Positions 1,062 through 63,043 of a stretch of DNA of 64,000 nt are shown piece by piece. Source of the stretch: Plazaster borealis (taxonomy: Eukaryota > Echinodermata > Asteroidea > Forcipulatida > Labidiasteridae); the NCBI GenBank assembly GCA_021014325.1, contig JAJGQC010000657.1, positions 21,630 to 85,629 on the forward strand, read 5' to 3'. Position numbers and translations under genes: made by a program. Positions within the stretch are counted from its first letter, which is position 1. Each line of letters starts with the position of its first letter. The notes beneath the pieces were generated by a model. It did no database searches. It saw only the letters and a list, made by a program, of their open reading frames with translations, and was not told the origin of the DNA.

Positions 1062-2075
1062 CATCCCCCATCCCCGAACCAGGCCCATTTCTATACCCAT
1101 CCCATTCATGCCCCATCCCCAGCTATCCTAAGCCGTTCCCGCAGCATGATGATTTATACTGCTAGTCCATCTCCCTCAAATTAAACTCCCATCCCTGGCG
1201 CCAGTCATCTACCCAGCTAGCTCATACCCACGTCCAACCAGCCACACCCCAGCAAAATTAATCCATCTACCCTCAAATCGAACTCACAGTCCCAGTTTGA
1301 TTATAATTATGTTCAACCAGCCACACCCCCAAAAATTACTACCAGTCCGACTATCGCATTTCTGTTCATTACCGCAAGATCTTGCGGGAGCCAGTTGCGT
1401 ACCCCTGTAGTCTTCGACAGGCACAGGTGATTGGAACCAGCCAAAGCAAAAAACAGGTACCCGATTACCGCCTTACACCAGATAAACATATAGTAGGGGT
1501 CGGGGTACTCGACGGCTTGATGCCGTGACGCGATATTCAAAATGGCCACCAGCCATGCTTGATCTGTGTAAACACCGTGGATGTATTACGATCATTTGAT
1601 GTTATTTTCTGTCTCTAGAGGTAAGCTTTATCGTGTAGCTTATTTAAGTTCAAGATGAAGAATAGGAATAGGCCTCGTGTGAACCCGTGTAAACACTAAG
1701 ATTGTCATAAAACGGTACTTTTGTGGCTTTCTATTTCCACCTTCATGCACGTAAACAACGGCACTTGGAAGTATACAACGGCCGGATGTAGGTCATTGCA
1801 TTGTGCCAGTCAATGACAACTTGCCGTCAATCAAATGAAACAATGTACTTTTCTGTTTAGAGTATCTGGTGTCTGTGTTACGTAATCTTTTACCGCTTGT
1901 AGTTTACATAATGTTGTATTTACCTCAATGCGTGGATGGTTGTATCTGAGATCAATGTGTGGGCCTAGGCCTACATGTTTCTAAAATGAAATAAGGGAAT
2001 TACAGTCATGTAACGTCAGCTGTTGTAAACTGCTTACCAAACAAAATGAAATGTCATCAAAAAAATTGATAATGG

Positions 2076-2120
2076 TCTGACGTTTCGACCTTTGCAGAGT
2101 CTTCCTCAAAGGCTGACGTT
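2076..2120 (+). repeat. Dispersed repeat fragment (gacgtttcgacctttgcaga motif)
   Basis: The motif tctgacgtttcgacctttgc followed by agagtcttcctcaaagg recurs in variant form near 31482-31506 (cctgatgtttcgaccctggc). Similar strings are common in dispersed repeats of marine invertebrates; that is from memory, not a search. Confidence 0.4.
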
Positions 2121-2702
2121 CTAAAACGGGTTAAGGTTTTGCACCTACATTCATTAGCTCTGAGCATAACCAAATTGTTTGTGTTTTTAAGACACCTTAA
2201 TGAAAGGGGTTGGGTGGATATCGATTTGAAAATAAAATTTGCTGATTTTAAGTTGTGATTTCTGTGAAACGATTACCGAATAAAGAGAACGACGATATAC
2301 TGTGTAATTTTGTTTCTGGTTGATAATGATATTCAATGTTGTGTGTATTCGAACCTTGCCCAATTCACTGTATAAAAATACAATCAATAAATGAAAGCAA
2401 GAGTAGTTCCTCATAATCATAGGAACTTCGGTAACAGTAGACATTTTAATCGTTCATCTTTGGTTTGAAATGGTATAACAAAATAATGAGCTCTTCGTTA
2501 ACTAATAATGATTACAAACTTAGACAATAGACGTATTCAATGAATTCTTGTACCAAAATTTATAGCTTTAAAGCTGAATCCTTGGCTGAATTTATGTTCA
2601 CACGCGGCCATAAATGATGCAATTAACACCCCAGGGAAAAACACCCCAAACAACTCTATCCGATTCCCCTTTCGTATCGTAGTCCCCCAAAAAATTAATA
2701 GA

Positions 2703-2731
2703 TAAAAATAAATAAATAAATAAATAAATAC
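2703..2731. repeat. (TAAA)n microsatellite
   Basis: A run of taaa/aaat units with about seven repeats. Confidence 0.8.
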
Positions 2732-3099
2732 AAGATTCAATTGACCGAACACCTATATAAAACTTAGTTCAATCATCCATTCCATACCCAAACCCGTTCT
2801 CTTTCCAATCCATTATTCAAACCCTAAAACGAAACCACTCAACCGGACACTCAAAATCTAGCGAGAACACCGGTGAAATGTTTACTGCTAGCCCTTGCAA
2901 ATTTCCTCTGACCACGGCATGAACGAGCCTCTAAACCCATTTATATTATAACAGCTCTAGGCCTATTCCTTAATTCCACAACGAGAACCACCGAATCAGA
3001 CACTCAAATATTATCCAATAAAAACACATGTGAAATTACGGCATGGCCCTTCGCTACAATTCATGTCCTTGGTCACTGACTCTATACCCACAGCGTGTG

Positions 3100-4000
3100 C
3101 CTTCAACTCAATATTTTTTAAGTCAGAACAGTCTCTCATGTGCCTATGTTTCCCAAGTAAACTAATGGTCCATACCTACAGCGTGTGCCTTCCACTCGAA
3201 TTATTTTGCAAGTCCGAACCAAAGATTCCCCTGTATACCTATACCTATTCCTACGTAAACTCTAACGGTATAGCGTGTGCCTTCCACTCGCAAATTATTT
3301 ACCAAGTATAAAGCAAGGATTTCCCTATGCCATAGTATCCTGCGTACCCTGTTGACTAATTAACTGATGGTCTATACCTAAAGCGTTTGCCTTCCACTCG
3401 CCAATTATTTACTAAGTATAAAGCAAGGATTTCCCTATGCCATAGTACCCTGCGTACCCTGTTGACTAATTAACTGATGGTCTATACCTAAAGCGTGTGC
3501 CTTCCACTCGCCAATTATTTACTAAGTATAAAGCAAGGATTTCCCTATGCCATAGTACCCTGCGTACCCTGTTGACTAATTAACTGATGGTCTATACCTA
3601 AAGCGTGTGCCTTCCACTCGCCAATTATTTACTAAGTATAAAGCAAGGATTTCCCTATACCATAGTACCCTGCGTACCCTGTTGACTAATTAACTGATGG
3701 TCTATACCTAAAGCGTGTGCCTTCCACTCGCCAATTATTTACTAAGTATAAAGCAAGGATTTCCCTATGCCATAGTACCCTGCGTACCCTGTTGACTAAT
3801 TAACTGATGGTCTATACCTAAAGCGTTTGCCTTCCACTCGCCAATTATTTACTAAGTATAAAGCAAGGATTTCCCTATGCCATAGTACTCTGCGTACCTG
3901 TTGACTAATTAAACTGATGGTCTATACCTAAAGCGTGTGCCTTCCACTCGCAAATTATTTACTAAGTATAAAGCACTGATTTTCCCATGCCATAGTATCC
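3100..4000 (+). repeat. Satellite A: 110-bp tandem repeat
   Basis: The string tctatacctaaagcg starts at 3371, 3481, 3591, 3701, 3811 and 3921, an exact 110-bp period with very few differences between copies. Degenerate copies of the segment agcgtgtgccttccactcg precede it near 3180 and 3270. Within a unit, gcaaggatttccctatgcca is constant and is followed by tagtaccctgcg. The same core reappears inside the composite repeat at 5.9-8.5 kb. No coding function is apparent. Confidence 0.92.
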
Positions 4001-4059
4001 TGTGTAAAGTATGAACCGAAGGTTCATCAAGTCTAAAATGCTTATTTTCCTGGGGGGAC

Positions 4060-4225
4060 CCAAGTGGGTGTCGTAGGTAGGTGTCGGACTCCGGAGGCAG
4101 CGGTCCCCGGTTCGAGCCCCGGTCCGAAGCCCGGTCCAAGGCCGCGCGGTGAGTGGGGCCGCCCGGTCGAGGCCGCGCGGTGAGTGGGGCCGCCAGGTCG
4201 CCACTCACCGCGCAGTGGCACGCAC
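4060..4225 (+). repeat. GC-rich tRNA-like segment with inverted repeat
   Basis: This is an abrupt GC-rich island in AT-rich DNA. It contains gtcggactccggaggcagcg followed by a B-box-like ccggttcgagccccgg, as in a degraded tRNA. Two direct copies of gaggccgcgcggtgagtggg-type sequence (near 4138 and 4169) are followed by the inverted copy ccactcaccgcgc (4201-4213), so a strong hairpin is possible. It sits exactly between satellite A and satellite B. Confidence 0.5.
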
Positions 4226-4309
4226 CGCCCCTACGAGCTTCTAAAGAAACTTAAAACTTAAAACGAACCTATGCACTTTTTAATCAAACTTTTTCGATTT
4301 ATTAAAAAG

Positions 4310-5835
4310 ATTTTTAAAACCCGAACTGTTTTTACGTAGCGGGAATCGATCCCAGGACCTTTCGGTCAGAGTCCTGAGCCCTTCCACTGGGCCACTGCTC
4401 CTCTTCCTTAATATGCGTTCGAGTTTAATTTTAAACCTTAGAATGAATAACTTTAAATCAAAACGTACTAAAAGAACACCCATGATTCGAACCCAGTACC
4501 TATGGGTTCAGAGTCCAGAGCCCTTCCACTGGGCCACTGCTCCTCTTCCTTAATATGCGTTCGAGTTTAATTTTAAACCTTAGAATGAATAACTTTAAAT
4601 CAAAACGTACTAAAAGAACACCCATGAATCGAACCCAGTACCTATGGGTTCAGAATCCGGAGCCCTTCCACTGGGCCACTGCTCCTCTTCCTTAATATGC
4701 GTTCGAGTTTAATTTTAAACCTTAGAATGAATAACTTTAAATCAAAACGTACTAAAAGAACACCCATGATTCGAACCCAGTACCTATGGGTTCAGAGTCC
4801 GGAGCCCTTCCACTGGGCCACTGCTCCTCTTCCTTAATATGCGTTCGAGTTTAATTTTAAACCTTAGAATGAATAACTTTAAATCAAAACGTACTAAAAG
4901 AACACCCATGAATCGAACCCAGTACCTATGGGTTCAGAATCCGGAGCCCTTCCACTGGGCCATTGCTCCTCTTACTTAATTTGCGTTCGAGTTTAATCTT
5001 AAACCTTAGAATGAACAACTTTAAATCAAAACGTACTAAAAGAACACCCATGATTCGAACCCAGTACCTATGGGTTCAGAGTCCGGAGCCCTTCCACTGG
5101 GCCACTGCTCCTCTTACTTAATTTGCGTTCGAGTTTAATTTTAAACCTTAGAATGAATAACTTTAAATCAAAACGTACTAAAGAACACCCATGAATCGAA
5201 CCCAGTACCTGTGGGTTCAGAGTCCGGAGCCCTCCCGCTGGGCCACTGCTCCTCTTACTTAATTCGCGTTCGAGTTTAATCTTAAACCTTAGAATGTACA
5301 ACTTTAAATCAAAACGTACTAAAAGATCACCAGGGATTCGAACCCAGTACCTATGGGTTCAGAGTCCGGAGCCCTCCCGCTGGGCCACTGCTCCTCTTAC
5401 ATAAATTGCGTTCGAGTTTAATTTTAAACCTCAGCATGAACAACTTCAAATTAAAACGTACTAAAAGATCACCAGGGATTTGAACCCAGTACCTATGGGT
5501 TAAGGGTCCGGAGCCCTTCCACTGGGCCACTGCTCCTCTTACATAAATTGCGTTCGAGTTTAATTTTAAACCTCAGCATGAACAACTTCAAATTAAAACG
5601 TACTAAAAGATCACCAGGGATTCGAACCCAGTACCTATGGGTTAAGGGTCCGGAGCCCTTCCACTGGGCCACTGCTCCGCTTACATAAATTGCGTTCGAG
5701 TTTAATTTTAAACCTCAACATGAACAACTTCAAATTAAAACGTACTAAAAGAAAACCAGGGAATCGAACCCAGTACCTATGGGTTCAGAGTCCGGAGCCC
5801 TTCCGCCGGGCTACTGATCCTCCTACAAAAATTGC
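4310..5835 (-). repeat. Satellite B: 142-bp tRNA-like tandem repeat, 11 units
   Basis: The marker gaacccagtacct or its variants occurs at about 4347, 4489, 4631, 4773, 4915, 5057, 5198, 5340, 5482, 5624 and 5766: ten intervals of 141-142 bp. Read on the minus strand, each unit has the A-box match tggcccagtgg, a segment ggactctgaaccc resembling a tRNA-Gln (CTG) anticodon loop, and the B-box match gggttcgaatc. The acceptor ends do not pair, so these are tRNA-derived modules and not tRNAs. The translations repeat only because the DNA does. Confidence 0.9.
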
Positions 5836-8720
5836 GTTCGAGTTTAATTTAAAACCCTACAACATCGAATCAACAACGGCCAAAAAGTATACTACTGGTA
5901 AATAGCGTTTGCCTTCCAGTCGCAAATTATTGATTAAGTGTAAAGCAAGGATTTCCCTGTGCCATAGTACCCTGCGTAAACCAATGGCCCTAAGCGTACA
6001 AAAAGAACACACGGGATTCGAACCCAGTACCTTTGCGTTCAGAGTCCGGAGCCCTTCCACTGGGCCACTGATCCTCCTATAACAAATTGCGTTCGAGTTT
6101 AATTTAAAACCCTGCATCATCAAATCAACAACGGCAAAAAGTAAACAACTGGTAAATAGCGTTTGCCTTCCAGTCGCAAATTATTTATTAAGTGTAAAGC
6201 AAGGATTTCCCTGTGCCATAGTACCCTGCGTAAACCAATGGCCTTAAGCGTACAAAAAGAACACACAGGATTCGAACCCAGTACCTTCGCGTTCGGAGTC
6301 CGGAGCCCTTCCACTGGACCACTGTTCCTCCTACTCAAATTGCGTTCGAGTTTAATTTAAAACCCAGAACAAATCAACAACAGCCAAAAAGTAAACTATT
6401 GGTATAGCATATGCCTTCCTTGTAAAGCAAGGATTTCCCTATGCCATAGTACCCTGCGTAAACCAATGGCCTCAAGTCTACAAAAAGAAACACGCGGGAT
6501 TCGAACCAAGTACCTTTGCGTTAAGAGTCCGGAGCCCTTCCACTGGGCCACTGTTCCTCTTACTTAAATTGCGTTTGATTTTAGTTTAAAACCTAAAACA
6601 TCAAAACATCTGCGTAAACCAATGGCCTTAAGCGTACAAAAAGAACACACGGGATTCGAACCCAGTACATTTGCGTTCAGAGTCCGGAGCCCTTCCACTG
6701 GGCCACTGATCCTCCTATAACAAATTGCGTTCGAGTTTAATTTAAAACCCTGCATCATCAAATCAACAACGGCCAAAAAGTAAACAACTGGTAAATAGCG
6801 TTTGCCTTCCAGTCGCAAATTATTGATTAAGTGTAAAGCAAGGATTTCCCTGTGCCATAGTACCCTGCGTAAACCAATGGCCTTAAGCGTACAAAAGAAC
6901 ACACGGGATTCGAACCCAGTACCTTTGCGTTCAGAGTCCGGAGCCCTTCCACTGGGCCACTGATCCTCCTATAACAAATTGCGTTCGAGTTTAATTTAAA
7001 ACCCTGCATCATCAAATCAACAACGGCCAAAAAGTAAACAACTGGTAAATAGCGTTTGCCTTCCAGTCGCAAATTATTTATTAAGTGTAAAGCAAGGATT
7101 TCCCTGTGCCATAGTACCCTGCGTAAACCAATGGCCTTAAGCGTACAAAAGAACACACAGGATTCAGAACCCAGTACCTTCGCGTTCGGAGTCGGAGCCC
7201 TTCCACTGGACCACTGTTCCTCCTACTCAAATTGCGTTCGAGTTTAATTTAAAACCCAGAACAAATCAACAACAGCCAAAAGTAAACTATTGGTATGGCA
7301 TATGCCTTCCTTGTAAAGCAAGGATTTCCCTATGCCATAGTACCCTGCGTAAACCAATGGCCTCAAGTCTACAAAAAGAAACACGCGGGATTCGAACCAA
7401 GTACCTTTGCGTTAAGAGTCGGAGCCCTTCCACTGGGCCACTGTTCCTCTTACTTAAATTGAGTTTGATTTTATTTTAAAAACTAAAACATCAAAACTTC
7501 TGCGTAAACCAATGGCCTTAAGAGTACAAAATGAACACACGGGATTCGAACCCAGTACATTTGCGTTCAGAGTCCGGAGCCCTTCCACTGGGCCACTGAT
7601 CCTCCTATAACAAATTGCGTTCGAGTTTAATTTAAAACCCTGCATCATCAAATCAACAACGGCCAAAAAGTAAACAACTGGTAAATAGCGTTTGCCTTCC
7701 AGTCGCAAATTATTGATTAAGTGTAAAGCAAGGATTTCCCTGTGCCATAGTACCCTGCGTAAACCAATGGCCTTAAGCGTACAAAAAGAACACATGGGAT
7801 TCGAACCCAGTACCTTTGCGTTCGGAGTCGGAGCCCTTCCACTGGACCACTGTTCCTCCTACTCAAATTGCGTTCGAGTTTAATTTAAAACCCAGAACAA
7901 ATCAACAACGGCCAAAAAGTAAACTATTGGTAAAGCATATGCCCTCCTTGTAAAGCAAGGATTTCCCTGTGCCATAGTACCCTGCGTAAACCAATGGCCT
8001 TAAGCGTACAAAAAGAACACACGGGATTCGAACCCAGTACCTTTGCGTTCAGAGTCCGGAACCCTTCCACTGGGCCACTGGTCCTGCTATAAAAAATGCG
8101 TTCGAGTTTAATTTAAAACCCTACATCACCAAATCAACAACGGACAAAAAGTAAACAACTGGTAAATAGCGTTTGCCTTCCTTGTAAAGCAAGGATTTCC
8201 CTATGCCATAGTACCCTGCGTAAACCAAAGGCCTCAAGTCTACAAAAAAAAACACGCGGGATTCGAACCAAGTACCTTTGCGTTAAGAGTCCGGAGCCCT
8301 TCCACTGGGCCACTGTTCCTCTTACTTAAATTGCGTTTGATTTTAGTTTAAAACCTAAAACATCAAATCAACACCGGCCAAAAAGTAAAGTAATGGTAAA
8401 TAGCGACGAGCGTGTGCCTTCCACTCGCAAATTAATTACAAGTGCAATACAAGGATTTCCCCATGCCATAGTACCCTGCGTAAACCAATGGGACCGTCTT
8501 AACTTACAAAAATAACACACAGGATTCGAACCCAGTACCTTTGCGTTCAGAGTCCGGAGCCCTTCCACTGGGCCACACTGCTCCTGTTACTCAAATTTCG
8601 TTCGAGTTTATTTTAAAACCCTACAACATCAAATCAACAACGGACAAAAAGTACGGTAAACTAATAGCGTGTGTGCCATTCGAACCCGGTACCATGGGGT
8701 TCGGAGTCCCGATCCTTGTC
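5836..8720 (-). repeat. Composite satellite: A core and tRNA-like B module interleaved
   Basis: Each full unit (about 254 bp) joins the B module (gattcgaacccagtacc ... tgggccactg) to the A core (agcgtttgccttccagtcg ... ccctgcgta). B-module positions are about 6020, 6274, 6503, 6658, 6912, 7167, 7394, 7548, 7803, 8030, 8265, 8528 and 8682. The spacings 254, 254, 229, 155 then 254, 255, 227, 154 show a four-unit higher-order repeat of about 890 bp, followed by partial copies. Short spacings come from units lacking part of the A core. Confidence 0.88.
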
Positions 8721-8734
8721 CGCAATGCTACTGG

Positions 8735-10828
8735 TCCTCTGCCTTATTTGCATTTTAATGTAATATGGAATCTAAGAATGAATTAACACCGTTAATGTAG
8801 AGAAGTATAAACATATACGATGAAAGGATTGGGACTGGGTACGACCATGGTACGACGAAGTTATTTCGACGGTGTTATGGAGGATAAATAAAATTCACGG
8901 GACTGAAACGAGGAATAGCCAAATTTTTAGAAGTGTTTAACTGAGGAAATAACAATGATCGAAAAAGGTGGGACAATTATGGGGGGGGGGGCATATTCAC
9001 ACCGAGTGCGTAATGTGGCCAACAAAACCATTAAATATTGTATGTTATAGATCTACATTATTTTTTTTAGTCTAAGTAATTGAACTCTAAATATACATGG
9101 CACGGATTCTTTTTCTTGTTTTCTTTCTTTTTTAATATTCGAGTTTATTAACTTCATATAATTTTATAATAATACTGCCATCAAAATCAAGATGAAGATT
9201 GCAAACAATAACACACTAAAGTTTTAAAAGCAAAAAATTAATACACCTGTAAAAAAGATATTAAAAGAATTCAAACGTCAATAGTGTGTATGTGTAAACA
9301 AAATAAATGTTGACACAAGGTAATATGAAGCTGTCATACGGTACTAGTCACTGTGCCAGACTTGAGCCAATGTTGAAGTCATTTGTAAACATTGATGTAA
9401 CACAGGCTATACACGTACGTCTGCAAGTGAATAATTCGATACAATAATAGAAATCCCTGGATAACAGCAAACGGTACTGAATAACAGAGAATCATAGGGA
9501 GCGATAACACGCTCTCGCCCATTGTGTTGTGAAAAGTAGGCTACACACACAAGCATACCAGCCAAACGTAATGTGTAAAATTGAACATACGTACAGCTGC
9601 TAGAAACATATACAGATCGCAAACATTGCTATTTTCAGTGCTCTTGCCTCTAAGGGGTCTGAGAGACTTATTATGGAACCAGAATAAACGAGTATACATT
9701 AGTCTTGCCTGAACAGCTCGCTGAAGATTAAAACCACGACAAAAATGCTCTAATTATCGTCCACGGAGACAGCCAGATTCAAGCGTGCTTGGAGACCATT
9801 TGAATACACGTGTATGCGGTACCCTGAATAAAGCATTGATTGATTGATAAGAGACCAACTGGGGTACCCGACTATTCGTTCTCTTGTGGCACGGTTTGAA
9901 AACTCTGCCCTCACAGAATGATCCAACGGGGAAATTGAAAATTTTAATTTGTTCCGCCATTCCAACCCAAAACAGTGTAAAAACTACTGTTGAAGTCCAA
10001 ACAGTCCATTTCTCACTTTTTGTATAAATATATTCAAGCGAAAGTGTGACACACTATTTAAAAAAATAAATTAAAAAGTTGTGTATTAAAACAATTAAAA
10101 AGACGTAAATTAGTGACAAGATAACTCCAAATGTTTGATCATCTTAGATTATCTTAGATGGTTTACAAAATGATGTTGTTGCTTTATAATGTAATGGTCA
10201 AGCTCACACATTAAACATGCATACACGAGGCTTCATACGTGTGTGTAAGGTCAAGCACACACATTAAAGTCAATACAAATATGCAAGGATTCTTTGATCT
10301 ATTTTTCATCCAAAATTGATGTCATAAATGGCAAAAAAATCCAGGATTTTTCCCATACCATTTAACCTATGATATCTCTCATATTTATTTTAAACAATAA
10401 CTGTTTCAGAAAAACAAAATTATACAGGTTTTCAAGGCCAATTTCAACGAAAACTCACTCAAGAGATATGTAGTGGTCTCAAGATTTGCTAATTAAATAT
10501 TCATGTTAAAAGATCCGAAAACAAAAGGCAAGACGACAATGGCGTTCATCAAACCTTGAAATCCATTGTCAACTCTTTAATTCTCAACGTCAGAAGGTCC
10601 AGTCTCATTGTGGTTCCCCTGCCGGCAGTTCACACCAAACCCCCACACCCCTACCCTCCCACACCAAACCCCATAACCCTAAGTCCATAACCCTAATAAT
10701 ACAAGTTCAGAAGAAATTAATTTGAAAATATGAAACTGTTGAGAAAGTTCTTTAATATGAATGATCAACTTATTAAAAGCCTGGAAATTACCTTAAACAT
10801 TTATTTTAGTCATAATTCAAAATACCGC
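8735..10828. other. No gene recognised
   Basis: AT-rich sequence with no recognisable exon, RNA or element. It holds a poly-G run near 8979 and, near 10630-10700, a C-rich stretch with a few ccctaa-like words too short to call telomeric. Confidence 0.4.
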
Positions 10829-13041: not shown

Positions 13042-16000
13042 GTACACAAGGTGTTAAACTTGTACATATGTAATTTTGAGTGATTCCAGACAATTTCATT
13101 TTTGGGCCAATTTTTATAAATGGGCCTTTTTGAGCAAGGATTTTCAGTTTAGAAAACTGCAAGGGGTTAAACTTGTGTTTTGGAGCGATTTCAGACAGTT
13201 TTATTTTCAGCCCAATTTTTATAAATGGGCCTTTTTGAGCCAGGATTTTCAGTTAAAAAAACTGCAAGGGGTTAAACTTGTTTTTGGAGCGATTTCAGAA
13301 CATTTTATTTTCAGCCCAATTTTTAAAAATGGGCCTTTTGAGCCAGGATTTTCAGTTTAAAAAACTGCAAGGGTTAAACTTGTATTTTGGAGCGATTTCA
13401 GAACATTTTATTTTCAGCCCAATTTTTAAAAATGGGTCTTTTGAGCGAGGATTTTCACTTTACAAAACTGCAAGGGGTTAAACTTGTATTTTGGAGCGAT
13501 TTCAGAACATTTTATTTTCAGCCCAATTTTTAAAAATGGGCCTTTTTGAGCCAGGATTTTCAGTTAAAAAAACTGCAAGGGGTTAAACTTGTATTTTGGA
13601 GCGATTTCAGAACATTTTATTTTCAGCCCAATTTTTAAAAATGGGCCTTTTTGAGCCAGGATTTTCAGTTAAAAATACTGCAAGGGGTTAAACTTGTATT
13701 TTGGAGCGATTTCAGAACATTTTATTTTCAGCCCAATTTTTAAAAATGGGCCTTTTTGAGCCAGGATTTTCAGTTTAAAAAACTGCAAGGGGTTAAACTT
13801 GTTTTTTGGAGCGATTTCAGAACATTTGATTTTCAGCCCAATTTTTAAAAATGGGCCTTTTTGAGCCAGGATTTTCAGTTAAAAAAACTGCAAGGGGTTA
13901 AACTTGTTTTTTGGAGCGATGTCACAACATGTTATAATAAGCCCAATTTTTAAAATGGGGCCTTTTTGAGCCAGGACTTTCAGTTAAAAAAACTGCAAGG
14001 GGTTAAACTTGTTTTTTGGAGCGATTTCAGAACATTTTATTTTCAGCCCAATTTTTAAAAATGGGCCTTTTTGAGCCAGGACTTTCAGTTTAAAAAACTG
14101 CAAGGGGTTAAACTTGTATTTTGGAGCGATTTCAGAACATTTTATTTTCAGCCCAATTTTTAAAAATGGGCCTTTTTGAGCGAGGATTTTTACTTTAAAA
14201 AACTGCAAGGGGTTAAACTTGTATTTTGGAGCGATTTCAGAACATTTTATTTTCAGCCCAATTTTTAAAAATGGGCCTTTTTGAGCCAGGATTTTCAGTT
14301 AAAAAAACTGCAAGGGGTTAAACTTGTATTTTGGAGCGATTTCAGAACATTTTATTTTCAGCCCAATTTTAAAAATGGGCCTTTTTGAGCCAGGTTTTTT
14401 CAGTTTTAAAAACTGCAAGGGGTTAAACTTGTTTTTTGGAGCGATTTCAGAACATTTTATTTTCAGGCCAATTTTTAAAAATGGGCCTTTTGAGCCAGGA
14501 TTTTCAGTTTAAAAAACTGCAAGGGGTTAAACTTATTTTTTGGAGCGATTTCAGAACATTTTATTTTCAGCCCAATTTTTAAAAATGGGCCTTTTTGAGC
14601 CAGGATTTTCAGTTAAAAAAACTGCAAGGGGTTAAACTTGTTTTTTGGAGCGATTTCAGAACATTTTATTTTCAGCCCAATTTTTAAAATGGGCCTTTTT
14701 GAGCCAGGATTTTTGGTTTAAAAAACTGCAAGGGGTTAAACTTGTTTTTTGGAGCGATTTCAGAACATTTTATTTTCAGCCCAATTTTTAAAAATGGGCC
14801 TTTTTGAGCCAGGATTTTCAGTTTAAAAAACTGCAAGGGGTTAAACTTGTTTTTTGGAGCGATTTCAGAACATTTTATTTTCAGCCCAATTTTTAAAAAT
14901 GGGCCTTTTTGAGCCAGGATTTTTGGTTAAAAAAACTGCAAGGTGTTAAACTTGTTTTTTGGAGCGATTTCAGAACATTTTATTTTCAGCCCAATTTTTA
15001 AAAATGGGCCTTTTTGAGCCAGGATTTTTGGTTAAAAACTGCAAGGGGTTAAACTTGTTTTTGGAGCGATTTCAGAACATTTTATTTTCAGCCCAATTTT
15101 TAAAAATGGGCCTTTTTGAGCCAGGATTTTTGGTTTAGAAAACTGCAAGGTGTTAAACTTGTTTTTTGGAGCGATTTCAGAACATTTTATTTTCAGCCCA
15201 ATTTTTAAAAATGGGCCTTTTTGAGCCAGGATTTTTGGTTAAAAAACTGCAAGGTGTTAAACTTGTTTATTGGAGCGATTTCAGAACATTTTATTTTCAG
15301 CCCAATTTTTAAAAATGGGCCTTTTTGAGCCAGGATTTTTGGTTAAAAAAACTGCAAGGGGTTAAACTTGTTTTTTGGAGCGATTTCAGAACATTTTATT
15401 TTCAGCCCAATTATTAAAAATGGGCCTTTTTGAGCCAGGATTTTCAGTTAAAAAAACTGCAAGGGATTAAACTTGTTTTTGGAGCGATTTCAGAACATTT
15501 TATTTTCAGCCCAATTTTTAATAATGGGCCTTTTGAGCCAGGATTTTTGGTTAAAAACTGCAAGGGGTTAAACTTGTTTTTTGGAGCGATTTCAGAACAT
15601 TTGATTTTCAGCCCAATTTTTAAAAATGGGCCTTTTTGAGCCAGGATTTTTAGTTAAAAAAACTGCAAGGGGTTAAACTTGTATTTTGGAGCGATTTCAG
15701 AACATTTTATTTTCAGCCCAATTTTAAAAATGGGCCTTTTTGAGCCAGGTATTTTAAGTTTAAAAAACTGCAAGGGGTTAAACTTGTTTTTGGAGCGATT
15801 TCAGAACATTTGATTTTCAGCCCAATTTTTAAAAATGGGCCTTTTGAGCCAGGATTTTCAGTTTAAAAACTGCAAGGGGTTAAACTTATTTTTGGAGCGA
15901 TTTCAGAACATTTTATTTTCAGCCCAATTTTTAAAAATGGGCCTTTTTGAGCCAGGATTTTCAGTTAAAAAAACTGCAAGGGGTTAAACTTGTTTTTTGG

Positions 16001-18390
16001 AGCGATTTCAGAACATTTTATTTTCAGCCCAATTTTTAAAATGGGCCTTTTTGAGCCAGGATTTTTGGTTTAAAAAACTGCAAGGGGTTAAACTTGTTTT
16101 TTGGAGCGATTTCAGAACATTTTATTTTCAGCCCAATTTTTAAAAATGGGCCTTTTTGAGCCAGGATTTTCAGTTTAAAAAACTGCAAGGGGTTAAACTT
16201 GTTTTTGGAGCGATTTCAGAACATTTTATTTTCAGCCCAATTTTTAAAAATGGGCCTTTTGAGCCAGGATTTTTGGTTAAAAAAACTGCAAGGTGTTAAA
16301 CTTGTTTTTGGAGCGATTTCAGAACATTTTATTTTCAGCCCAATTTTTAAAAATGGGCCTTTTGAGCCAGGATTTTTGGTTAAAAAAACTGCAAGGGTTA
16401 AACTTGTTTTTGGAGCGATTTCAGAACATTTTATTTTCAGCCCAATTTTTAAAAATGGGCCTTTTGAGCCAGATTTTTGGTTTAGAAAACTGCAAGGTGT
16501 TAAACTTGTTTTTGGAGCGATTTCAGAACATTTTATTTTCAGCCCAATTTTTAAAAATGGGCCTTTTGAGCCAGGATTTTTGGTTAAAAAAACTGCAAGG
16601 TGTTAAACTTGTTTTTTGGAGCGATTTCAGAACATTTTATTTTCAGCCCAATTTTTAAAAATGGGCCTTTTTGAGCCAGGATTTTTAGTTAAAAAAACTG
16701 CAAGGGGTTAAACTTGTATTTTGGAGCGATTTCAGAACATTTTATTTTCAGCCCAATTTTAAAAATGGGCCTTTTTGAGCCAGGTTTTTTCAGTTTAAAA
16801 AACTGCAAGGGGTTAAACTTGTTTTTTGGAGCGATTTCAGAACATTTTATTTTCAGCCCAATTTTTAAAAATGGGCCTTTTTGAGCCAGGATTTTCAGTT
16901 TAAAAAACTGCAAGGGGTTAAACTTATTTTTTGGAGCGATTTCAGAACATTTTATTTTCAGCCCAATTTTTAAAAATGGGCCTTTTTGAGCCAGGATTTT
17001 CAGTTAAAAAAACTGCAAGGGGTTAAACTTGTTTTTTGGAGCGATTTCAGAACATTTTATTTTCAGCCCAATTTTTAAAATGGGCCTTTTTGAGCCAGGA
17101 TTTTTGGTTTAAAAAACTGCAAGGGGTTAAACTTGTTTTTTGGAGCGATTTCAGAACATTTTATTTTCAGCCCAATTTTTAAAAATGGGCCTTTTGAGCC
17201 AGGATTTTCAGTTTAAAAACTGCAAGGGGTTAAACTTGTTTTTGGAGCGATTTCAGAACATTTTATTTTCAGCCCAATTTTTAAAAATGGGCCTTTTTGA
17301 GCCAGGATTTTTGGTTAAAAACTGCAAGGTGTTAAACTTGTTTTTGGAGCGATTTCAGAACATTTTATTTTCAGCCCAATTTTTAAAAATGGGCCTATGG
17401 GATCCAGGATTTTTGGTTATAAAATGTGCAAGGGGTTAAACTTGTTTTTTGAGCGATTTCAGAACATTTTATTTTCAGCCCAATTTTTAAAAATGGGCCT
17501 TTTTGAGCCAGAATTTTTGGTTTAGAAAACTGCAAGGTGTTAAACTTGTTTTTTGGAGCGATTTCAGAACATTTTATTTTCAGCCCAATTTTTAAAAATG
17601 GGCCTTTTGAGCCAGGATTTTTGGTTAAAAAAACTGCAAGGTGTTAAACTTGTTTTTGGAGCGATTTCAGAACATTTTATTTTCAGCCCAATTTTTAAAA
17701 ATGGGCCTTTTGAGCCAGGATTTTTGGTTAAAAACTGCAAGGGGTTAAACTTGTTTTTGGAGCGATTTCAGAACATTTTATTTTCAGCCCAATTATTAAA
17801 AATGGGCCTTTTTGAGCCAGGATTTTCAGTTAAAAAAACTGCAAGGGATTAAACTTGTTTTTTGGAGCGATTTCAGAACATTTTATTTTCAGCCCAATTT
17901 TTAATAATGGGCCTATGGGAGCCCGGAGTGTAGGATAAAAAACAGCAAGGGGTTAAACTTGTTTTTTGGAGCGATTTCAGAACATTTGATTTTCAGCCCA
18001 ATTTTTAAAAATGGGCCTTTTTGAGCCAGGATTTTTAGTTAAAAAAACTGCAAGGGGTTAAACTTGTATTTTGGAGCGATTTCAGAACATTTTATTTTCA
18101 GCCCAATTTTAAAAATGGGCCTTTTTGAGCCAGGTTTTTTCAGTTTAAAAAACTGCAAGGGGTTAAACTTGTTTTTTGGATCGATTTCAGAACATTTGAT
18201 TTTCAGCCCAATTTTTAAAAATGGGCCTTTTTGAGCCAGGATTTTCAGTTTAAAAAACTGCAAGAGGTTAAACTTGTTTTTTGGAGCGATTTCAGAACAT
18301 TTTATTTTCAGGCCAATTTTTAAAAATGGGCCTTTTTGAGCCGGGATTTTTGGTTAAAAAAACTGCAAGGGGTTAAACTTGTACTTTTGA
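13042..18390 (+). repeat. Satellite C: ~104-bp tandem repeat, about 51 units
   Basis: Each unit carries ggagcgatttcagaacattt, then tattttcagcccaattttt, aaaaatgggcctttttgag, ccaggattttcag, and actgcaaggggttaaacttg. The part gcccaatttttaaaaatgggc is a near-perfect palindrome. Unit length varies by a few bases because of A/T-run indels. Rare variants recur at fixed distances: aacttatttt at 14528 and 16919, aagggattaaac at 15461 and 17841, and aacatttgatt at 15599 and 17978. This shows a block duplication of about 2.38 kb. Edge units (13.05 kb, 17.4 kb, 17.9 kb) are the most diverged. No gene is present; readings on either strand are by-products. Confidence 0.93.
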
Positions 18391-26093: not shown

Positions 26094-26563
26094 AAAGAGT
26101 ATTTCCGGCACTTTGAGTCGTGTCGAAAAGTGAACCAGTGGAGCAAAGAGCAAGCCGTTATTTACTTATCGGCGAGTTTGCAAGGAAATGCCCTAAGATT
26201 GTTGGGGGATGTTCCTACTGGTCAGACACAGACATATAGTGGACTAGTGAAGTTACTAGACAGGCGATTTGGTTCAGGTCGCCAGAGTGAAAATTATTTG
26301 GTCGAGCTGAGGCATCGCCGGCAAGGACCAAAAGAGACGTTGCAAGAGTTGGGTCAAGCCATACAACAGTTGATGGTCAAAGCGTATCCTGACACACAGG
26401 AAGAGTCACGCGATCATTTGGCAAAGAATCATTTCCTAGATGCGGTCGAAAGTCGGTCTGTTCGGGAGGGCATAAACAGGGCCCGACCCAAGAACTTGGA
26501 TGAGGCCATTCGAGCTGCAATGGAAACAGAGAACTTTGAAATCTGGACGGAAAGCCAGTAAAG
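26094..26563 (+). pseudogene. Ty3/gypsy gag, capsid domain
   Basis: About 145 residues from near NQWSKEQAVIYLSASLQGNA, through LVKLLDRRFGSG and ENYLVELRHRRQGPKETLQE, to [15 protein letters not shown] and a stop. The pattern W...Q....L...LQG.AL....L, followed by F.....F.L..R.Q.P.E.L...., is the retrotransposon gag capsid signature. It lacks its own good start and is separated by stops from the parts either side, so gag is no longer one frame. Confidence 0.75.
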
Positions 26564-26926
26564 TTGGCTAGAGTGTTGGATACAGGAATGGAACAGAGGT
26601 TTCATGAAATTGAGAAAGAAATGAAGAGTGTTCTTGGGTTGTTAGCAGGGCTAACAAAACAAGTACAGAACAAGAGCGCCTCAGTGGAGAGACCTACTGC
26701 GGACAGACCTAGAACAGAGAGTAAGCAAAGTGTTTGGAGATGCTTTAATTGCGATGAGCAAGGGCACTTTGCGAGAGAGTGTAAGAAACCAAAGAGGGGT
26801 AACCCAAAGCGTGAGGGCTGGAAGTGCTTCAACTGTGGGAAGCAAGGCCATATCGCTAAAGATTGTCGGGAACCCAAAAGAGAGAATAGAAAACAGGGAA
26901 ACGACAGAGAAGCAGCCGCTTGAAGG
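26564..26926 (+). pseudogene. Ty3/gypsy gag, nucleocapsid with two zinc knuckles
   Basis: The frame contains a short coiled segment ([18 protein letters not shown]) and two CCHC knuckles, [14 protein letters not shown] and [14 protein letters not shown], both with all metal ligands (C-x2-C-x4-H-x4-C). Basic tails follow each. The knuckles bind the element's RNA during packaging. The frame ends at tga (26921-26923) just before the protease frame. Confidence 0.85.
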
Positions 26927-26947
26927 GCCCGCGGGCAGGCTGGAGAT

Positions 26948-27480
26948 GTGAGGGGACCGAAGAGATGCCATAAAGGTAACGAAGCAGTCATGGAAGAAAA
27001 GCAGCCCAAGTCTGAGGTGGGAAAGGTTTATACCTTACCCAATCCACACCTTAGTTCCCGCTATGGCTTATTCGTAGATGGCATGATAAGGAAAACGAAG
27101 TGTCATTTTTTGATTGACACTGGTGCAACTGATACGCTTATCAGTAGCAAAGTGTATTACGAGATACCTAGAGAACAGAGACCAGTCTTAGAGAAAGACA
27201 ATGTGAGAGTTAGGCAGGTGGATGGAAGTCCTCTGTCAGTACTGGGAGTCGCATGGGTTGATGTTCATGTTGGGCGAACAACACACCCAGTGAGAGCGAT
27301 TTTCACGGAGATGAAGTATTCAGGAATACTTGGGATGGATTTCATCTTGCCCACAGGGGGTAATTTGGATTTCCAGACCAAAGAGTGGAGAATAAATGGT
27401 GAGCGAATGAAGTGCACAGGCAGTGCTGGAGAGCCATTTGTGAACCCAGAAGGACAAAGGCAGTGTTGGATCGAAGTAAT
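26948..27480 (+). pseudogene. Ty3/gypsy aspartic protease
   Basis: The protein shows the catalytic motif FLIDTGATDTLIS and the flap-to-C-terminal motif SGILGMDFILPTGG, as in retropepsins. The active-site D-T-G is intact. The frame runs on without a reverse transcriptase; around 27430-27490 it passes directly into a sequence resembling the end of RNase H, so pol is internally deleted while the frame stays open. Confidence 0.85.
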
Positions 27481-28642
27481 GTCAGAGTGCGACGTAGAGA
27501 GTCAGCACAGAGCTGGAAAGAAAAATGGCAACACTGACGGGTTGTCAAGTCGACCCTCCAAGCAGTGTGGCCGGGAAGAAGTGGTAGAAAGAGGAAAGTT
27601 AGATGGCCCGTCTGAGAAGATGTCAGAGATGGAAGATAAACCAGAGGGGAAGCTGTTGGTCAGGGGCATAGCGGCCCAACCAAGCATCCCAGTGAAGGCT
27701 CTCAGGAAAGCCCAAGTGGAGGATGAGACCATAAGTTGGGTCTTAAGTGCCAAAGAGGAGGGCAAGGACCGTCCGGAGTGGAGGGAGATTTCCCACTTGA
27801 CGGCGGCTCATGAGACATATTGGTCTTATTGGGACCAGTTATGTGTAAGAGATGTAAGAGTATGAGGAAAGAGATACTCAGAGAAGTGCATGGTGGACTG
27901 CTAAGTGGTCACTTGGGCATAAGGAAAACCTTGGCGAAGATGAAATATAGATATTTCTGGCCGGGTATGTCCACAGACGTACGCTCCTTCATAAGGAGTT
28001 GTGACATGTGTGCCAGAAGAAAGTCCCCTGCAAGGAAAGGGATTGCTCCCTTGAAACAGTGTCGTGTTGTAAGAGTTCCCATGGAGAGAGTGGCAATAGA
28101 TTTGCTTGGGCCACTGCCCAAGACAGAGAATGGGAACCAGTGGATCCTAGTGATAGGAGATTACTGTACAAAATGGATGGAAGCGTTTCCATTGCCAGAT
28201 GCGACAGCCAGTACAGTAGCACGCAAATTGGTGCAAGAGTTTGTATGTCGGTGCAGTGCCACAAGAGCTGCACTCCGACCAAGGCACTAATTTTGAGTCA
28301 GAGGTGTTTAAAGAGATGTGCCAGATACTAGGTGTAACAAAGATGAGAACAACCACCTATAATCCGAAGAGTGACGGAATGGTAGAGCGATTTAACAAGA
28401 CACTAGTGAACATGGTGGCAGCTCTCATTAGCCCGCATGGGAAGCAGAAGGATTGGGACAAGTTCCTCCCTTATGCAACCTTTGCATACAGATGCACCCA
28501 CAGGACTCCACAGGAGTCACCCAACATGATGATGTTGGGGAGAGAGGTTAGTATACCGGTGGACTTGGCAACAGGTTGCCCTGAGACCGAGGTTGAAACT
28601 AACACTGACTTCGCAGAAGAGCTGCGGAGTAATATGTTCTAG
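27481..28642 (+). pseudogene. Ty3/gypsy RNase H tail and integrase (broken, 3' truncated)
   Basis: HRAGKKNGNTDGLSSRP matches the usual end of RNase H just before integrase. Next comes the HHCC zinc-binding domain (EVHGGLLSGHLGIRKTLAKM ... SCDMCARRK). A frame change near 27825-27860 and another near 28245 split it. The core keeps the catalytic D (VAIDLLGPLP), D (HSDQGTNFES) and E (DGMVERFNKT). The sequence stops abruptly at 28642, inside or just after the core, where the second copy of the host duplication begins. The rest of pol and the 3' LTR are missing. Confidence 0.82.
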
Positions 28643-46456: not shown

Positions 46457-47070
46457 TTACACCTTGTTATAAATCCTCACTGAGTTGTAGTCTGCCACTG
46501 CCAGCTTCTGACCATCTGATGTCAATGAGATTCCACCTGGGTCGTACAGACCCTGAGCAATACAGCTTAGAAATCTACCCTGAGGGTCATAAAGATGTAT
46601 ATGACCAAAATTAAGGCCATTTCTTACTGCAATGTAGATAGCTGAGCTGTCACAGCATACACCTCTGCAGCTTCCAACTTGCTGACCATTAATGAGTGGT
46701 TTGATGGTGATTAGTGTAGCACCATTGTCATCAACAATGGTCACTTGGTGCTCCCAACCACTGACTAGAATTCTCTCCTTGCTGTCAATGGCCAAGTAGT
46801 GAGGTTGTGTCTTAACTGAAACAGTGTCTATGAGTGAACCATCACTGGATCTGTGTTTAGTAATGACAGACCTCTTCACATCCCCCACAATGATTGTATC
46901 CTTCATGACTGCTACACTGTAGAGGTCTACTGCTGTCTTGCCCACTTCACTATGAGGCACTGTGTAGAATTCAAATATCTGTTTGCCATTCCTATTGTAC
47001 ATCTTGACAGTAGAGCTCATTCTATCTACAACCAATAACTGATTCTGGAATGCAGCAACAGCCCAAGGGT
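46457..47070 (-). CDS. TRIM-NHL protein, coding exon 2 (beta-propeller)
   Basis: After acceptor tttgttttccag the exon completes a codon and encodes PWAVAAFQNQLLVVDRMSST to the stop at 46457-46459 (about 204 residues). Repeated blade-like patterns are visible: QLLVVDR.SSTVKMY, TIIVGDVKRSVI, ILVSGWEHQVTIVDDNG, IYIAVRNGLNFGHIHLYDPQ and LAVADYNSVRIYN. This is the NHL-type propeller of TRIM2/3/71-like proteins, used to bind RNA or protein targets. The phase (1+2) matches exon 1 exactly. No lesion is seen. Confidence 0.9.
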
Positions 47071-47842
47071 CTGGAAAACAAATGAACAAATGGATAGGAC
47101 TCAATACAATGATCATTCATTTGCAAATTACTTACAACCTATTAAATTAGATTTTGGCAAAAAACACAAAAGATGTTATTATTCAATTACATTTGTTCCC
47201 ATGTTGTAAAAGCCCTTTTTACTTTGCTAATAATTCACACAGCACCTACATGTACATGTACCTATGACATACAGTAAAACAATAACAACAATCTGTTAAT
47301 ACTAGCAAGGTGACTACTAATCAATAGAAACTGGTAATGAATCCATTCTTTTTAACTCATTTTAAGATTTGACCTAAATTACATTAATTATTGATATTCA
47401 TTCATTTAGTATTATAAACTTCTTTTGTTGGTAGTGTTGATTAGAGGAAAGTCCAAATTCATAATGACAGCAGATAGAGTGGATTCAGTGATCATGCAGT
47501 GGATGAATGCAGCCCTACATGTAGTCTACAAGGTACAGTGGAATGGGAATAATCAATCAATTTCATGACATACACTTTGATTACATGTAAACCTTGTATT
47601 GATCACAATATGGTCTAATGTGTGAACATCATTTTAAGGATTGACTGGAGTTGATAACTTCAAACAATGTTTGATAACAATTTATCATATTTTAGTGTAG
47701 CATTGAATAGGAATAGCTACTTATTTTCATGTACTCTTTGACCGTCACCCTGATAACCAGTCAAGAGTACTTTTTACACTGTTTGAACTGAGATTTACAA
47801 CAACATTACATCTCTAAATAAGTGACTTTTTAAGGAACTTAC
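47071..47842 (-). other. Intron of the TRIM gene
   Basis: Canonical donor gtaagt at its 5' end and ttgttttccag at its 3' end. It is AT-rich and no element was recognised inside. Confidence 0.85.
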
Positions 47843-49115
47843 ATTGTGATAATTGGATAGTTTTCTTCTGCTGTCCCTTAGTGTCACAGATTACCACTCT
47901 TCTGTTACTACAGTCTGCCACTGCCATCTCATCCCCAGGTAGAGAGGCATCAATATCCCTAGCCCTAATGAATCCTCCATCATACTCCAAACAAAGCTCC
48001 CACCTTGGTTCCTTCATAGTCAGATTACCCAGGGAGATGTCAGAAACCCCTGGAGTGAATCTCAGATGGGAAAGGGTAGAATCCATCTTGGGTTGATTTT
48101 GATCTCTGAGTAATTTCAAGTCCTTACTGATAGTAGGATAGAGTGCAAGGAAGTCAGGAGCTGATGAATTGTTGCTTACATCTTTGGCAGTCTGCAGTGA
48201 ATGCTGTATTTGCTGTGAGTTTACACTCACTGTTTGCTCATATTCCTCCAATTTCTTGTTACGATCTTTGTGGATGGTTTTTATTTCATCCATGATGCGA
48301 CTCTCTTGAGCTGCTACCTTAGCCCTAATCTGACAAGATCTATTTTTCACTTGTGCCATAGTTGTCTCAACTGCAATGTCTAGGTTGTCTTTCATTGTTG
48401 AGACAGTTGCTTGAGATTGTTCAAGATTCTTTAGTATTCCTTCAAGGGGAGTAATGAGTTCAGCCAATGACTGTTTATATGTGGATGAGGCTTGGTTGCA
48501 GTCAATATACTCATGTTGTGGTTTACAGTGATCGATGACAGTACAAGCTTGGCAAATCATCACATCACATGTTGTACAATAGAACCACATCACTTCACCT
48601 TCATGAGTTTGGCATTCTGGATGACGTTTTGGGTTTGTCCTTTTCATTGCAATCTTACCATCACTAATGTCTTTCAAAGTAGCAACTGTGTGGCTTGATA
48701 GTACAGGGAATTTCCGGTGCACTTTGTAGCAGTTTGCACAAATGATCGTGGGGCAGTCAAAGCAGAAATATGTTGCCTCAATTTCTTCTTCGCATAGTTT
48801 ACAAATCAATTTGCTGTTTTCAGATGAGCTGACCTGCTCCAGTTGAAGTGCAAGACCAGTTAAAATGAAGTTAGTCTTGAGATCTTGAACACCCGTCTCA
48901 GGAAGTTGTGTCTCTTTTCGACACAAAGGACAAATAAGCGTCTTAGCATCTTTGTAGCTGGTAGTGTGGTATTCAAGTAAACAGTGTTCACAAAAGCTAT
49001 GAAGACAGTCCAGTACTTTGGGTTCTGTGTAATCCTCTTTGCAAATACTGCACTTCAGATAATCCTTTCTGATTTTCTCTAAAGCTGAAACCTGCGCTGG
49101 TTCAGAAGATGCCAT
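47843..49115 (-). CDS. TRIM protein, coding exon 1 (RING, B-boxes, coiled coil)
   Basis: Starting MASSEPAQ, the protein has a complete C3HC4 RING (C22, C25, C37, H39, C42, C45, C62, C65), B-box 1 (from C105, with CFDC and CANC) and B-box 2 (C168, H171, C183, C188, C191, H196, H201). A coiled coil spans about 205-330, and the first propeller strand begins at about 385. TRIM proteins are RING E3 ubiquitin ligases; the coiled coil dimerises them and the propeller picks the target. The start was chosen because it follows an acceptor (tatttccag) by six bases and gives the usual short lead before the RING. With exon 2 the product is 628 aa with no stops. Many animals have expanded TRIM families, so a specific orthologue is not claimed. 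Confidence 0.93.
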
Positions 49116-49502
49116 TTTGATCTGGAAATAAAAATCAAAGAGCAAAAATATTATATTACAAAAGAATTAGCATGGAGTTCACACAAAACATATGTTGCCT
49201 TTTTCCATCAAATTGATACCTGCACTGTACATTATGTGGGAATGAAATGCCAGCCTACACTGTAATAAAATATTACAAAATTTGAATAAATATGTCATCA
49301 CGAGATGATCATTTCAGTAACAAATAGGAAAAAAGTATTTTGTTTACCGTATAAACATCATTTTAAATAAGTCAACATGTGGTGCAAGTACATCTCATGT
49401 ATGTGTACTTGACATAATATAAATAATAAATCGATGAAATAAATATCTTCATCTTTAAAAACTAAGCAATAATTTTTGTGTTTGGACTTGGAGGATCCAG
49501 TT

Positions 49503-49994: not shown

Positions 49995-50335
49995 ATTTGA
50001 ACTTACAGGACCAAGTTGCTCCCAACCCAACTGGTAAGACATCTGCTCTAGCAATGCAAAGGTCGTGGGTTCGAATCCCATCCGAGTGATTTGCCTACGC
50101 CTATTAAATCGTTGCAGTAACCGCTACTAAAACATAGGATTCGAACTGCCTCTAACCACCGGGCTAGCTCGGTGGTCTAGTTGTAAGACATCTGCTATAG
50201 CAATGCAAAGGTTGTGGGTTCTAATCCCACCCAAGTGATTTGCCTATTAAATCGTTGCAGTACCCGCTGCTAAAACATAGGATTGGAACTGCTTCTAGCC
50301 ACCAGGCTAATACGGTGGTCTAGTGGTCTATCAAA
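49995..50335 (+). repeat. Tandem tRNA-like units (two and a half copies)
   Basis: aagacatctgctctagcaat with the B-box gggttcgaatccc, then aagacatctgctatagcaat with gggttctaatccc, then a partial third (acggtggtctagtggtc). The spacing is about 150 bp, with attaaatcgttgcagta shared between units. It is the same tRNA-like family as the core of the fold-back element at 41.9 kb. Acceptor stems are poor, so these are not tRNA genes. Confidence 0.65.
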
Positions 50336-53640: not shown

Positions 53641-54184
53641 CGACCAGGAGGCCACCCGTCCGGTACGGCCTCTCGCCCCTTGGCCTCGGGTCATGAAGTC
53701 CCGCACCCCAAACTCCCCATTAGAAGAACAGGCGGCCTGAGCGAAGATTTCAAATCGTTCGTAAGAGCTACTCTCAAACAACTTCTTGCATAACGAGTAT
53801 TTGGGTTTTGGGTTTTTTACTTGGGTTTATTTTTGGGGGGTTTTGGGGGGGGATTTATTTTTCCAAGTGTTTTCTTGCCTCTCTCTCCAGTATGGGAAGT
53901 TGGTTGGGGGGATTTTGTTCATTGCAGCAAAAACAAACAAAAACGGAGGCTTGTAATTCTGTATATAGTTATGCCAACTCCTTAATTTCTTGTACAAGAG
54001 GTACATGATCCCATGGCTTAAAGTGTCCCTTTGTTATCACGACATTCCTTCCCTTTTCTTTTACCTGACTGCTTTATATTCAATAGGAGAAGAGTTCCCT
54101 TTTCTTATAAAAATTCTCAGCTTTTGTTTGGACCACTAAAGTGCGCCAATCAGGTTCATCTTTTGCATATTAATATGAGTTGTA

Positions 54185-54745
54185 ATGTCAAGCTCGCAAT
54201 GTTCTAAAGGCACCCCGCCTCCAAATGTGTCCATTGTCTCCATGAACTGTCGCGGTTTGGCAGATCACAAAAAAAGGAGGGACGTCTTATATTTGTTAAG
54301 GACAAAGCGTTATTCCATTTACTGTTTGCAAGACTTCCATTGTACAGACTCCATGGAGAGGAGGATTAGAACTGAATCGGGATTTGACTGTTATTTTAGC
54401 TCTTTTAAAAGTAACTCGAGAGGTGTGGCAATTCTTTTAAACAGTACGTTTGAGTTTAAAGTTCTATCATGTAAAACTGACCCAAATGGTAATTTTGGGG
54501 CGCTCAGTTTAGATATTTATGGTTATAACATTACTTTAATTAATTTATATGGTCCTAATAAAGATGATCGTAATTTCTATGAAACTAATAACAATATCAT
54601 TACTGATTACGATAACCCCCACACAATTATATGTGGAGATTGAAATTTGGTATTGAATGACAAAATAGATTGTTGTAATTATGTTAACATTAACAACCCA
54701 TCGGCTAGACAGAGAGTGTTGGATTTGTGCAACCACTTAAATCTC
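54185..54745 (+). pseudogene. LINE (L1/Tx1-like) ORF2, endonuclease domain
   Basis: It starts MSSSQCSKGTPPPNVSIVSM, then NCRGL, the first AP-endonuclease motif. LQDFHCTD stands where LQE.H is usual, and SRGVAILLNSTFEF and INLYGPNKDDRNF follow. The next motif should be GD(W/F)N, but at 54641-54643 a tga interrupts it (CGD-stop-NLVLND). The frame then continues as RQRVLDLCNHLNLIDP to another stop. The endonuclease, which nicks target DNA to prime reverse transcription, is therefore dead. Confidence 0.85.
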
Positions 54746-62768: not shown

Positions 62769-63043
62769 AAGACCCCTTAAACAATTTAGCTGTGACCCGT
62801 TTTTCGTCCCTTACAGTATTGTATTGGCGAGCAAATATTGAAATTAATTTTTGAAATTTAATCATTTTTAAAATTATAGTGCTACATGTATTTACTCTTC
62901 TTAATATCAATAATCAAATAACAAATATTGAACAAATTTGACGTTTTTTCCTTCAAAAAGCTTTAAACCCAGGACGTCAGAGCAGTGCAACAGATTCTGG
63001 CTCCCTACCAAGGATGTCCGTCGAACAACGACAGCCAGACAAC

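Follow-up and report, generated by a model that had tools for sequence, protein, structure and literature searches.

A stretch of 64,000 nucleotides of DNA from Plazaster borealis (assembly GCA_021014325.1, contig JAJGQC010000657.1, here C557, positions 21630-85629; hereafter, the window), which is part of a 560.6-Mb assembly of 717 contigs, contains three adjoining tandem arrays, built, respectively, from a repeat of about 110 bp (A), a tRNA-like repeat of about 142 bp (B), and a composite unit in which A lies within B. The composite is probably a low-copy satellite bound to its locus, with an old fusion of the two repeats and continuing change in array length. The array comprises the following features (window positions):

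3092..3271, plus strand: two diverged edge A monomers of 88 and 92 bp, the older, shorter form of A (spacing 88, 92, then 110)
3272..4006, plus strand: A array of six ~110-bp units plus a final unit cut at position 75 (Tandem Repeats Finder, BLAST)
4016..4342, no strand: MID, a segment of ~330 bp that separates A from B and is joined to the first B unit (also in 20 other copies and three C21 loci)
4343..5760, minus strand: B array; its 10 units measure 141-142 bp, and all have a degenerate tRNA-like head (Tandem Repeats Finder, BLAST, Rfam)
5761..8676, minus strand: composite array of 13 units of the B+A type, 154-263 bp (B anchors)
6015..6906, no strand: four-unit block a-b-c-a, copy 1, matching units 1-4 of locus copy L020 at 99.1-100%
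6907..7797, no strand: four-unit block, copy 2, the source of an "890-bp" period, matching the same L020 units at 96.1-100%
8677..8787, minus strand: right edge, a strongly diverged B-like unit with no A after it ("end" cell in 21 complete copies)

Tandem Repeats Finder returned A with a period of 110 (3272-4006, 6.7 copies, 96% matches), B with a period of 142 (4346-5856, 10.7 copies, 94% matches) and, over 5741-8653, overlapping rows with periods of 254, 155 and 234, and in a BLAST search across the whole window (expect value, E, up to 0.01), A and B matches were confined to 3180-8783; by both programs taken together, B extends over 4343-5862. An earlier reading made from the letters alone (the sequence-only reading) had described A alone, B alone and A+B composites side by side, and these searches, together with the B anchors, bear it out. 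The B anchors in the composite array are spaced by 254, 254, 229 and 155 bp, then by 254, 254, 228 and 154 bp, and then by 255, 227, 235, 263 and 154 bp; the first series given in that reading (254/254/229/155) is thus correct, whereas the second (254/255/227/154) is slightly off because 255 and 227 are part of the next stretch. The basic composite form is 254 bp long, and the shortest units lack most of A. MID consists of a G+C-rich part, with a short inverted repeat noticed by eye, and an AT-rich part; the inverted pair was not listed by a repeat search at a minimum length of 40. In the first B unit, the 3' half of the tRNA-like part differs from that of the other B units, and MID and this unit together seem to form an extended terminal unit of the B array, as they also do in the copies read.

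The entire arrangement recurs in the assembly. For the 1.5-kb right flank, there were 53 matches in the 40 candidates that were scored out of 103; by our own count, 23 of these, at 93-100%, are on short contigs (the window included, and one cut by a contig end), and the others are on C21, C22, C8 and C256, the long ones at 81-96%. We fetched 20 of the 22 other near copies, leaving out C254 and C625:1 (one piece, L028, begins within the UP flank), and found the order UP-A-MID-B-composite-DN in all 20, where UP and DN are the flanks at window positions 1501-3000 and 8760-10250. The same order is present in three loci on C21, which were read in part only; the composites in these parts are 247-258 bp long. 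The birth of the composite had been thought to be readable directly in this one stretch, but this does not hold: given the same arrangement in 20 of 20 other copies and three C21 copies, the arrays in the window were inherited ready-made. Across the 21 complete copies, the number of composite units varies from 6 to 21, while the flanks differ from those of the window by 0.1-1.0% (UP) and 0.2-2.0% (DN). Altogether, 230 cells were filed as composite by length; one of these, the first cell of C21a (157 bp), is really a B unit that contains a short internal duplication, and it counts as composite in the clustering, diversity, box counts and shuffles, and as a first B unit in the consensus comparison. 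With clusters cut at 5%, type e is the first unit in 19 of the 21 complete copies, type d the last but one in 20, and type f the last in all 21.

On C515, C601 and C607, copies of the flank lie 153-187 kb apart in one orientation, and therefore a large segment seems to be repeated. The locus would have been copied as part of this much larger segment, of which ~10 kb is seen directly and the greater extent is suggested by the spacing. A TRIM probe has just 17 matches in the genome, so the copies of the large segment are not uniform. On C625, flank copies are about 231 kb apart, and the last ~3 Mb of C21 contain diverged flank copies in both orientations.

To follow the repeats across the genome, we used marks that are exact patterns and so miss mutated copies; sites were ordered by contig number, and the first 100 sites of each mark were considered, which for the composite mark extend as far as C515. 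The composite A-to-B junction has 205 exact sites in 560 Mb, the 110-bp form of A (A110) 104, and the B linker 683, with no sites for the reversed control of any of the three. Within C1-C22, composite marks occur on five contigs (C2, C3, C8, C21 and C22) and A110 marks on four (C8, C10, C21 and C22). Among 100 of the 104 A110 marks, all are on C8, C10, the tail of C21, C22 and short contigs, and none on C1, C2, C130 or C650; A110, the most restricted of the three marks, thus occurs only at loci of this family, on C10, and at C22:2.38 Mb, where there are two A110 units without a composite mark (B was not checked there). The first 100 of the 683 B marks, which extend to C21:26.26 Mb, are on C1, C2, C8, C10 and C21, and include C1:5.28 Mb, C2:12.26, 16.15 and 16.67 Mb, and C21:16.19-16.23 Mb. 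B is found without A110 or composite marks at C21:16.19-16.23 Mb, C2:16.15 Mb, C1:5.28 Mb and on C130, and with composite but without A110 marks at C2:12.26 and C2:16.67 Mb; C10 carries A110-MID-B without a composite mark, other loci of the family have the complete order, and lone composite marks, known as marks alone, are at C3:8.94 and C22:3.58 Mb. The monomer therefore consists of two repeats that also occur apart, A as the A110 array adjoining the composite and as the two units at C22:2.38 Mb, and, given that B is present elsewhere without A110 or composite marks, the possible objection to the sequence-only reading, that A and B always go together, does not apply. At C10:11881100-11882000 (L043), the B array passes directly into an unrelated ~60-bp tandem repeat, and composites were not found there. 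B matches also extend over far longer spans than in the window, namely C650:162557-220421, C130:737-24249 and C21:16193478-16206846 (spans between listed matches).

The composite is a B unit with an A module inside its linker, and the ends of this module indicate which form of A was taken up. When compared with the 3' end of the 88-bp edge A, the left end of the module was equalled by 0 of 5000 shuffles and the right end by 13 of 5000; against the 3' end of A110, which is longer than the short form by about 16-20 bp, 2833 and 918 of 5000 shuffles were as good, that is, there is no match. Because both module ends match the 88-bp form, A was probably tandem and short when captured. The adjoining 110-bp array, which the sequence-only reading had taken for a parent, is accordingly rejected in that role. 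The capture of B as more than one period is not claimed because the match of the B tail was not significant (356 of 5000 shuffles). At C2:16.67 Mb, the left A flank agrees with the 88-bp edge A at 15 of 15 bases in both units; at C2:12.26 Mb, it agrees at 15 bases in the first unit and 13 in the second, and has no match in the third. The view that the composite arose recently at this site from the A110 and B142 arrays as its parents draws on the adjacency of all three arrays and on the ancestral look of B-only letters at C2:16.67 Mb, but is quite improbable: beyond the module ends, two C2 loci have B and composites without A110 marks, and the window shares its arrangement with all the other copies fetched.

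The B part of the composite has a different standing. At C2:16.67 Mb, five B units are followed by two composites and then by the beginning of another unit. Of ten diagnostic sites, these two composites agree with B-only units at 8 and 7, respectively, and with later composites at 2 and 3, and they have the same junctions as the later composites. At C2:12.26 Mb, the TATGGG site of the first composite is, by eye, of the B-only kind. The right-edge unit and the main B-only consensus both contain the linker motif AGAATGAA, which the composite consensus lacks. The letters at C2:16.67 Mb make it plausible that B-only units were the source of the composite's B part, so that, of the descent from A and B arrays proposed earlier, the half that concerns B is supported, whereas the half that concerns the adjoining A110 is not. 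Since the composites at C2:16.67 Mb are B-like and have the shared junctions, the fusion appears older than the loci and would have preceded their separation, unless there was more than one fusion.

Several points weigh against this order of events. In the A part of the C2:16.67 composites, the count is 3 to 2, with 1 neither, and undecided; the second and third composites at C2:12.26 Mb carry derived letters at the TATGGG site (by eye); and few sites bear on the polarity of B, for which the right-edge unit, taken as outgroup, favors B-only by 5 to 2 (2 neither) in the safe columns, whereas the wider count of 12 to 3 (3 neither) takes in doubtful alignment. The opposite order, with an ancestral composite and the A110 and B142 arrays as its deletion derivatives, would agree with the derived-type composites at C2:12.26 Mb and with the fact that deletion does occur, as in the 229-bp and 155-bp units that lack parts of A. 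Nevertheless, we consider it unlikely because B marks outnumber composite marks by 683 to 205 and occur where no composite mark was found (C1:5.28, C2:16.15, C10 and C21:16.2 Mb), because of the distribution of the linker motif, and because the composites at C2:16.67 Mb are intermediate.

The sequence-only reading had also assigned to the composite array a higher-order unit of ~890 bp. Within the window, this period is present: an alignment of blocks 5761-6652 and 6653-7542 covers 887 bases with 21 mismatches and 8 one-base gaps, an identity of 97.6%, compared to 89-94% (gaps ignored) between each of the first four composite units and its next neighbor, so the blocks are more alike than neighboring units. 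Mean unit identity is 0.925 at lag 4, against 0.85-0.90 at lags 1-3 and 5-8, a signal equalled by 1 of 1000 unit-order shuffles. The block has, however, just two full copies, followed by an irregular third stretch, rather than many copies across the array. In the 22 arrays tested (1000 shuffles each, counts not corrected for the number of arrays), the best lag was equalled by 1 shuffle in the window (lag 4), 2 in L016 (lag 4), 2 in L030 (lag 5), 30 in L018, and 63 to 1000 in the remaining 18. A four-unit period is thus found in 2 of 22 arrays, the window and L016, its sister in both flank trees, and does not extend to the satellite in general.

A comparison with L020 accounts for the period. 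At a 7% cut, the unit types read e-a-b-c-a-b-c-g-d-f in L020 and e-a-b-c-a-a-b-k-a-b-g-d-f in the window, and the window units correspond to L020 units 0,1,2,3,4,1,2,3,4,5,7,8,9 at 96.1-100%. From this order, it follows that the four-unit block at 6015-6906 was duplicated to 6907-7797. Judged from the sequences of the units, the order in the window is the outcome of one four-unit exchange, plus one later unit missing, and the "890-base higher-order repeat" is apparently one local tandem duplication of four units. An argument to the contrary is that one of the four duplicated units is just 96.1% identical to its partner, which is low for a recent duplication and would call for gene conversion or an error in the assembly. 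In alpha-satellite higher-order repeats, a block that comprises several diverged monomers is duplicated with high identity; the window resembles them in this respect, and differs in that there are two block copies, in 2 of 22 arrays, and no centromere link.

A real centromeric or pericentromeric higher-order repeat could be suspected from the nested periodicity in the window and from the B marks that cover 13 kb inside the 28.8-Mb contig C21 (16.19-16.21 Mb). We regard this possibility as most improbable and reject it on distribution and size: there are only a few hundred exact marks in 560 Mb, the composite mark is present on 5 and the A110 mark on 4 of C1-C22 rather than in large arrays on most chromosomes, the composite array in the window is 3 kb long, and the four-unit period is as rare as described above. 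There is no evidence of a centromere here, and both abundance and distribution argue against the centromere link put forward previously.

The head of B, on the minus strand, is a degenerate tRNA-like sequence, as anticipated in the sequence-only reading: Rfam gave 15 tRNA matches (E ≤ 10) in 4000-8800, with scores of 16.8-31.9. Using the generally known A-box and B-box motifs, we found that 114 of 189 B cells and 148 of 230 composite cells combine an exact A-box and B-box with a T run, that is, B has a tRNA-derived head with RNA polymerase III boxes, as in satellites derived from short interspersed elements (SINEs). These counts, along with the single tRNA-Gln called by ARAGORN in the window array and another in L016, could point to a cluster of working tRNA genes. 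This explanation is scarcely credible and was rejected given that the alignments contain several non-pairs in the acceptor and anticodon stems instead of an intact cloverleaf, that 2 of 24 B heads in the window pass the Rfam gathering score of 29, and that, of 9 other loci scanned with ARAGORN, one yielded a tRNA. The boxes are probably relics. In 143 B-only cells, diversity is 0.046 in the tRNA-like part and 0.098 in the linker, and in 128 composites, it is 0.065 in the tRNA-like part, 0.088 in the linker and 0.072 in A; alignment effects are possible in both comparisons, and constraint on the tRNA-like part is not claimed.

Taken together, these data make the following history likely. A tandem array of the decayed tRNA-like element B would have taken A into its AT-rich linker, the captured piece being slightly more than one unit of the old ~88-bp form. 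Unequal exchange could then have carried the fused ~254-bp unit along the B array; this unit is common to the loci, having been read on C2 and C21 and recognized from its exact mark on C8, on C22 and on short contigs. Subsequently, the whole locus was copied, probably within a much larger segment, after which the composite arrays, now of 6-21 units, would have drifted by gain and loss of unit blocks while their edges stayed nearly fixed, the 890-bp period in the window representing one such four-unit duplication. Parts of this mechanism are observed directly, namely, the shared junctions, the shared order, the block duplication and the length differences. A function need not be assumed, and the arrays might well have none.

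Squamate SINE-derived satellites (sSats) are described as tandem units from a tRNA-related element with a longer terminal unit at one end and with array length that varies between copies of a locus (PMC10702118). The present satellite resembles them in its tRNA-related units and in the length differences between copies of the locus, and perhaps in MID plus the first B unit as the longer terminal unit, and is unlike them in the fusion of a second repeat. A search for MID gave 146 candidates, and the 40 of these that were scored are all within the locus family or on C10; hence, neither MID nor B is shown to belong to a dispersed SINE family, and, because no dispersed source SINE was found, membership in the SINE-derived satellites is not proved. 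Composite satellite DNA monomers are also known in which short stretches resemble more than one transposable element (PMC12628747); the likeness lies in one monomer with more than one repeat source, and the difference in that, here, both source repeats persist as tandem arrays in the genome. By analogy, the system would work like a SINE-derived satellite turned composite monomer. In the literature searched, with partial coverage, no publication that deals with this sea star satellite was found.

So far, the origin and change of satellites have mostly been inferred from large, homogenised arrays. Here, short arrays lie between non-satellite flanks in at least 21 copies, with flanks 0.1-2% from those of the window, and thus are replicates of turnover, and a locus on another contig retains an earlier-looking stage of the fused unit. 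We lean towards the view that this one genome holds a graded series of composite birth, from B alone, through the early B-like composites on C2, to the late composites beside A110 on C21, C22, C8 and the amplified segment, along with at least 21 near-identical replicate arrays in which unit gain and loss can be counted against flank substitutions. If so, one could measure directly how fast, and in steps of what size, unequal exchange proceeds in a satellite. The locus is a useful test bed rather than a new kind of system.

The rest of the window contains further repeats and gene remains. At 13074-18382, there are 51 copies of a 105-bp satellite (94% matches), and at 63036-63375, 20 copies of a 17-bp minisatellite in which all three plus-strand frames are open. 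A second tRNA-like element, a two-copy tandem of 143 bp with a period near that of B and a different sequence, is at 50034-50324. Remains of elements were found at 26540-28642 (zinc-knuckle, protease and integrase matches) and 54179-56538 (endonuclease and reverse transcriptase matches). TRIM-like protein pieces with RING, B-box and NHL matches occupy 46460-49166 on the minus strand, and within this region, 47817-49166 (minus strand) encodes a TRIM-type protein with 79% identity to proteins of Asterias amurensis.

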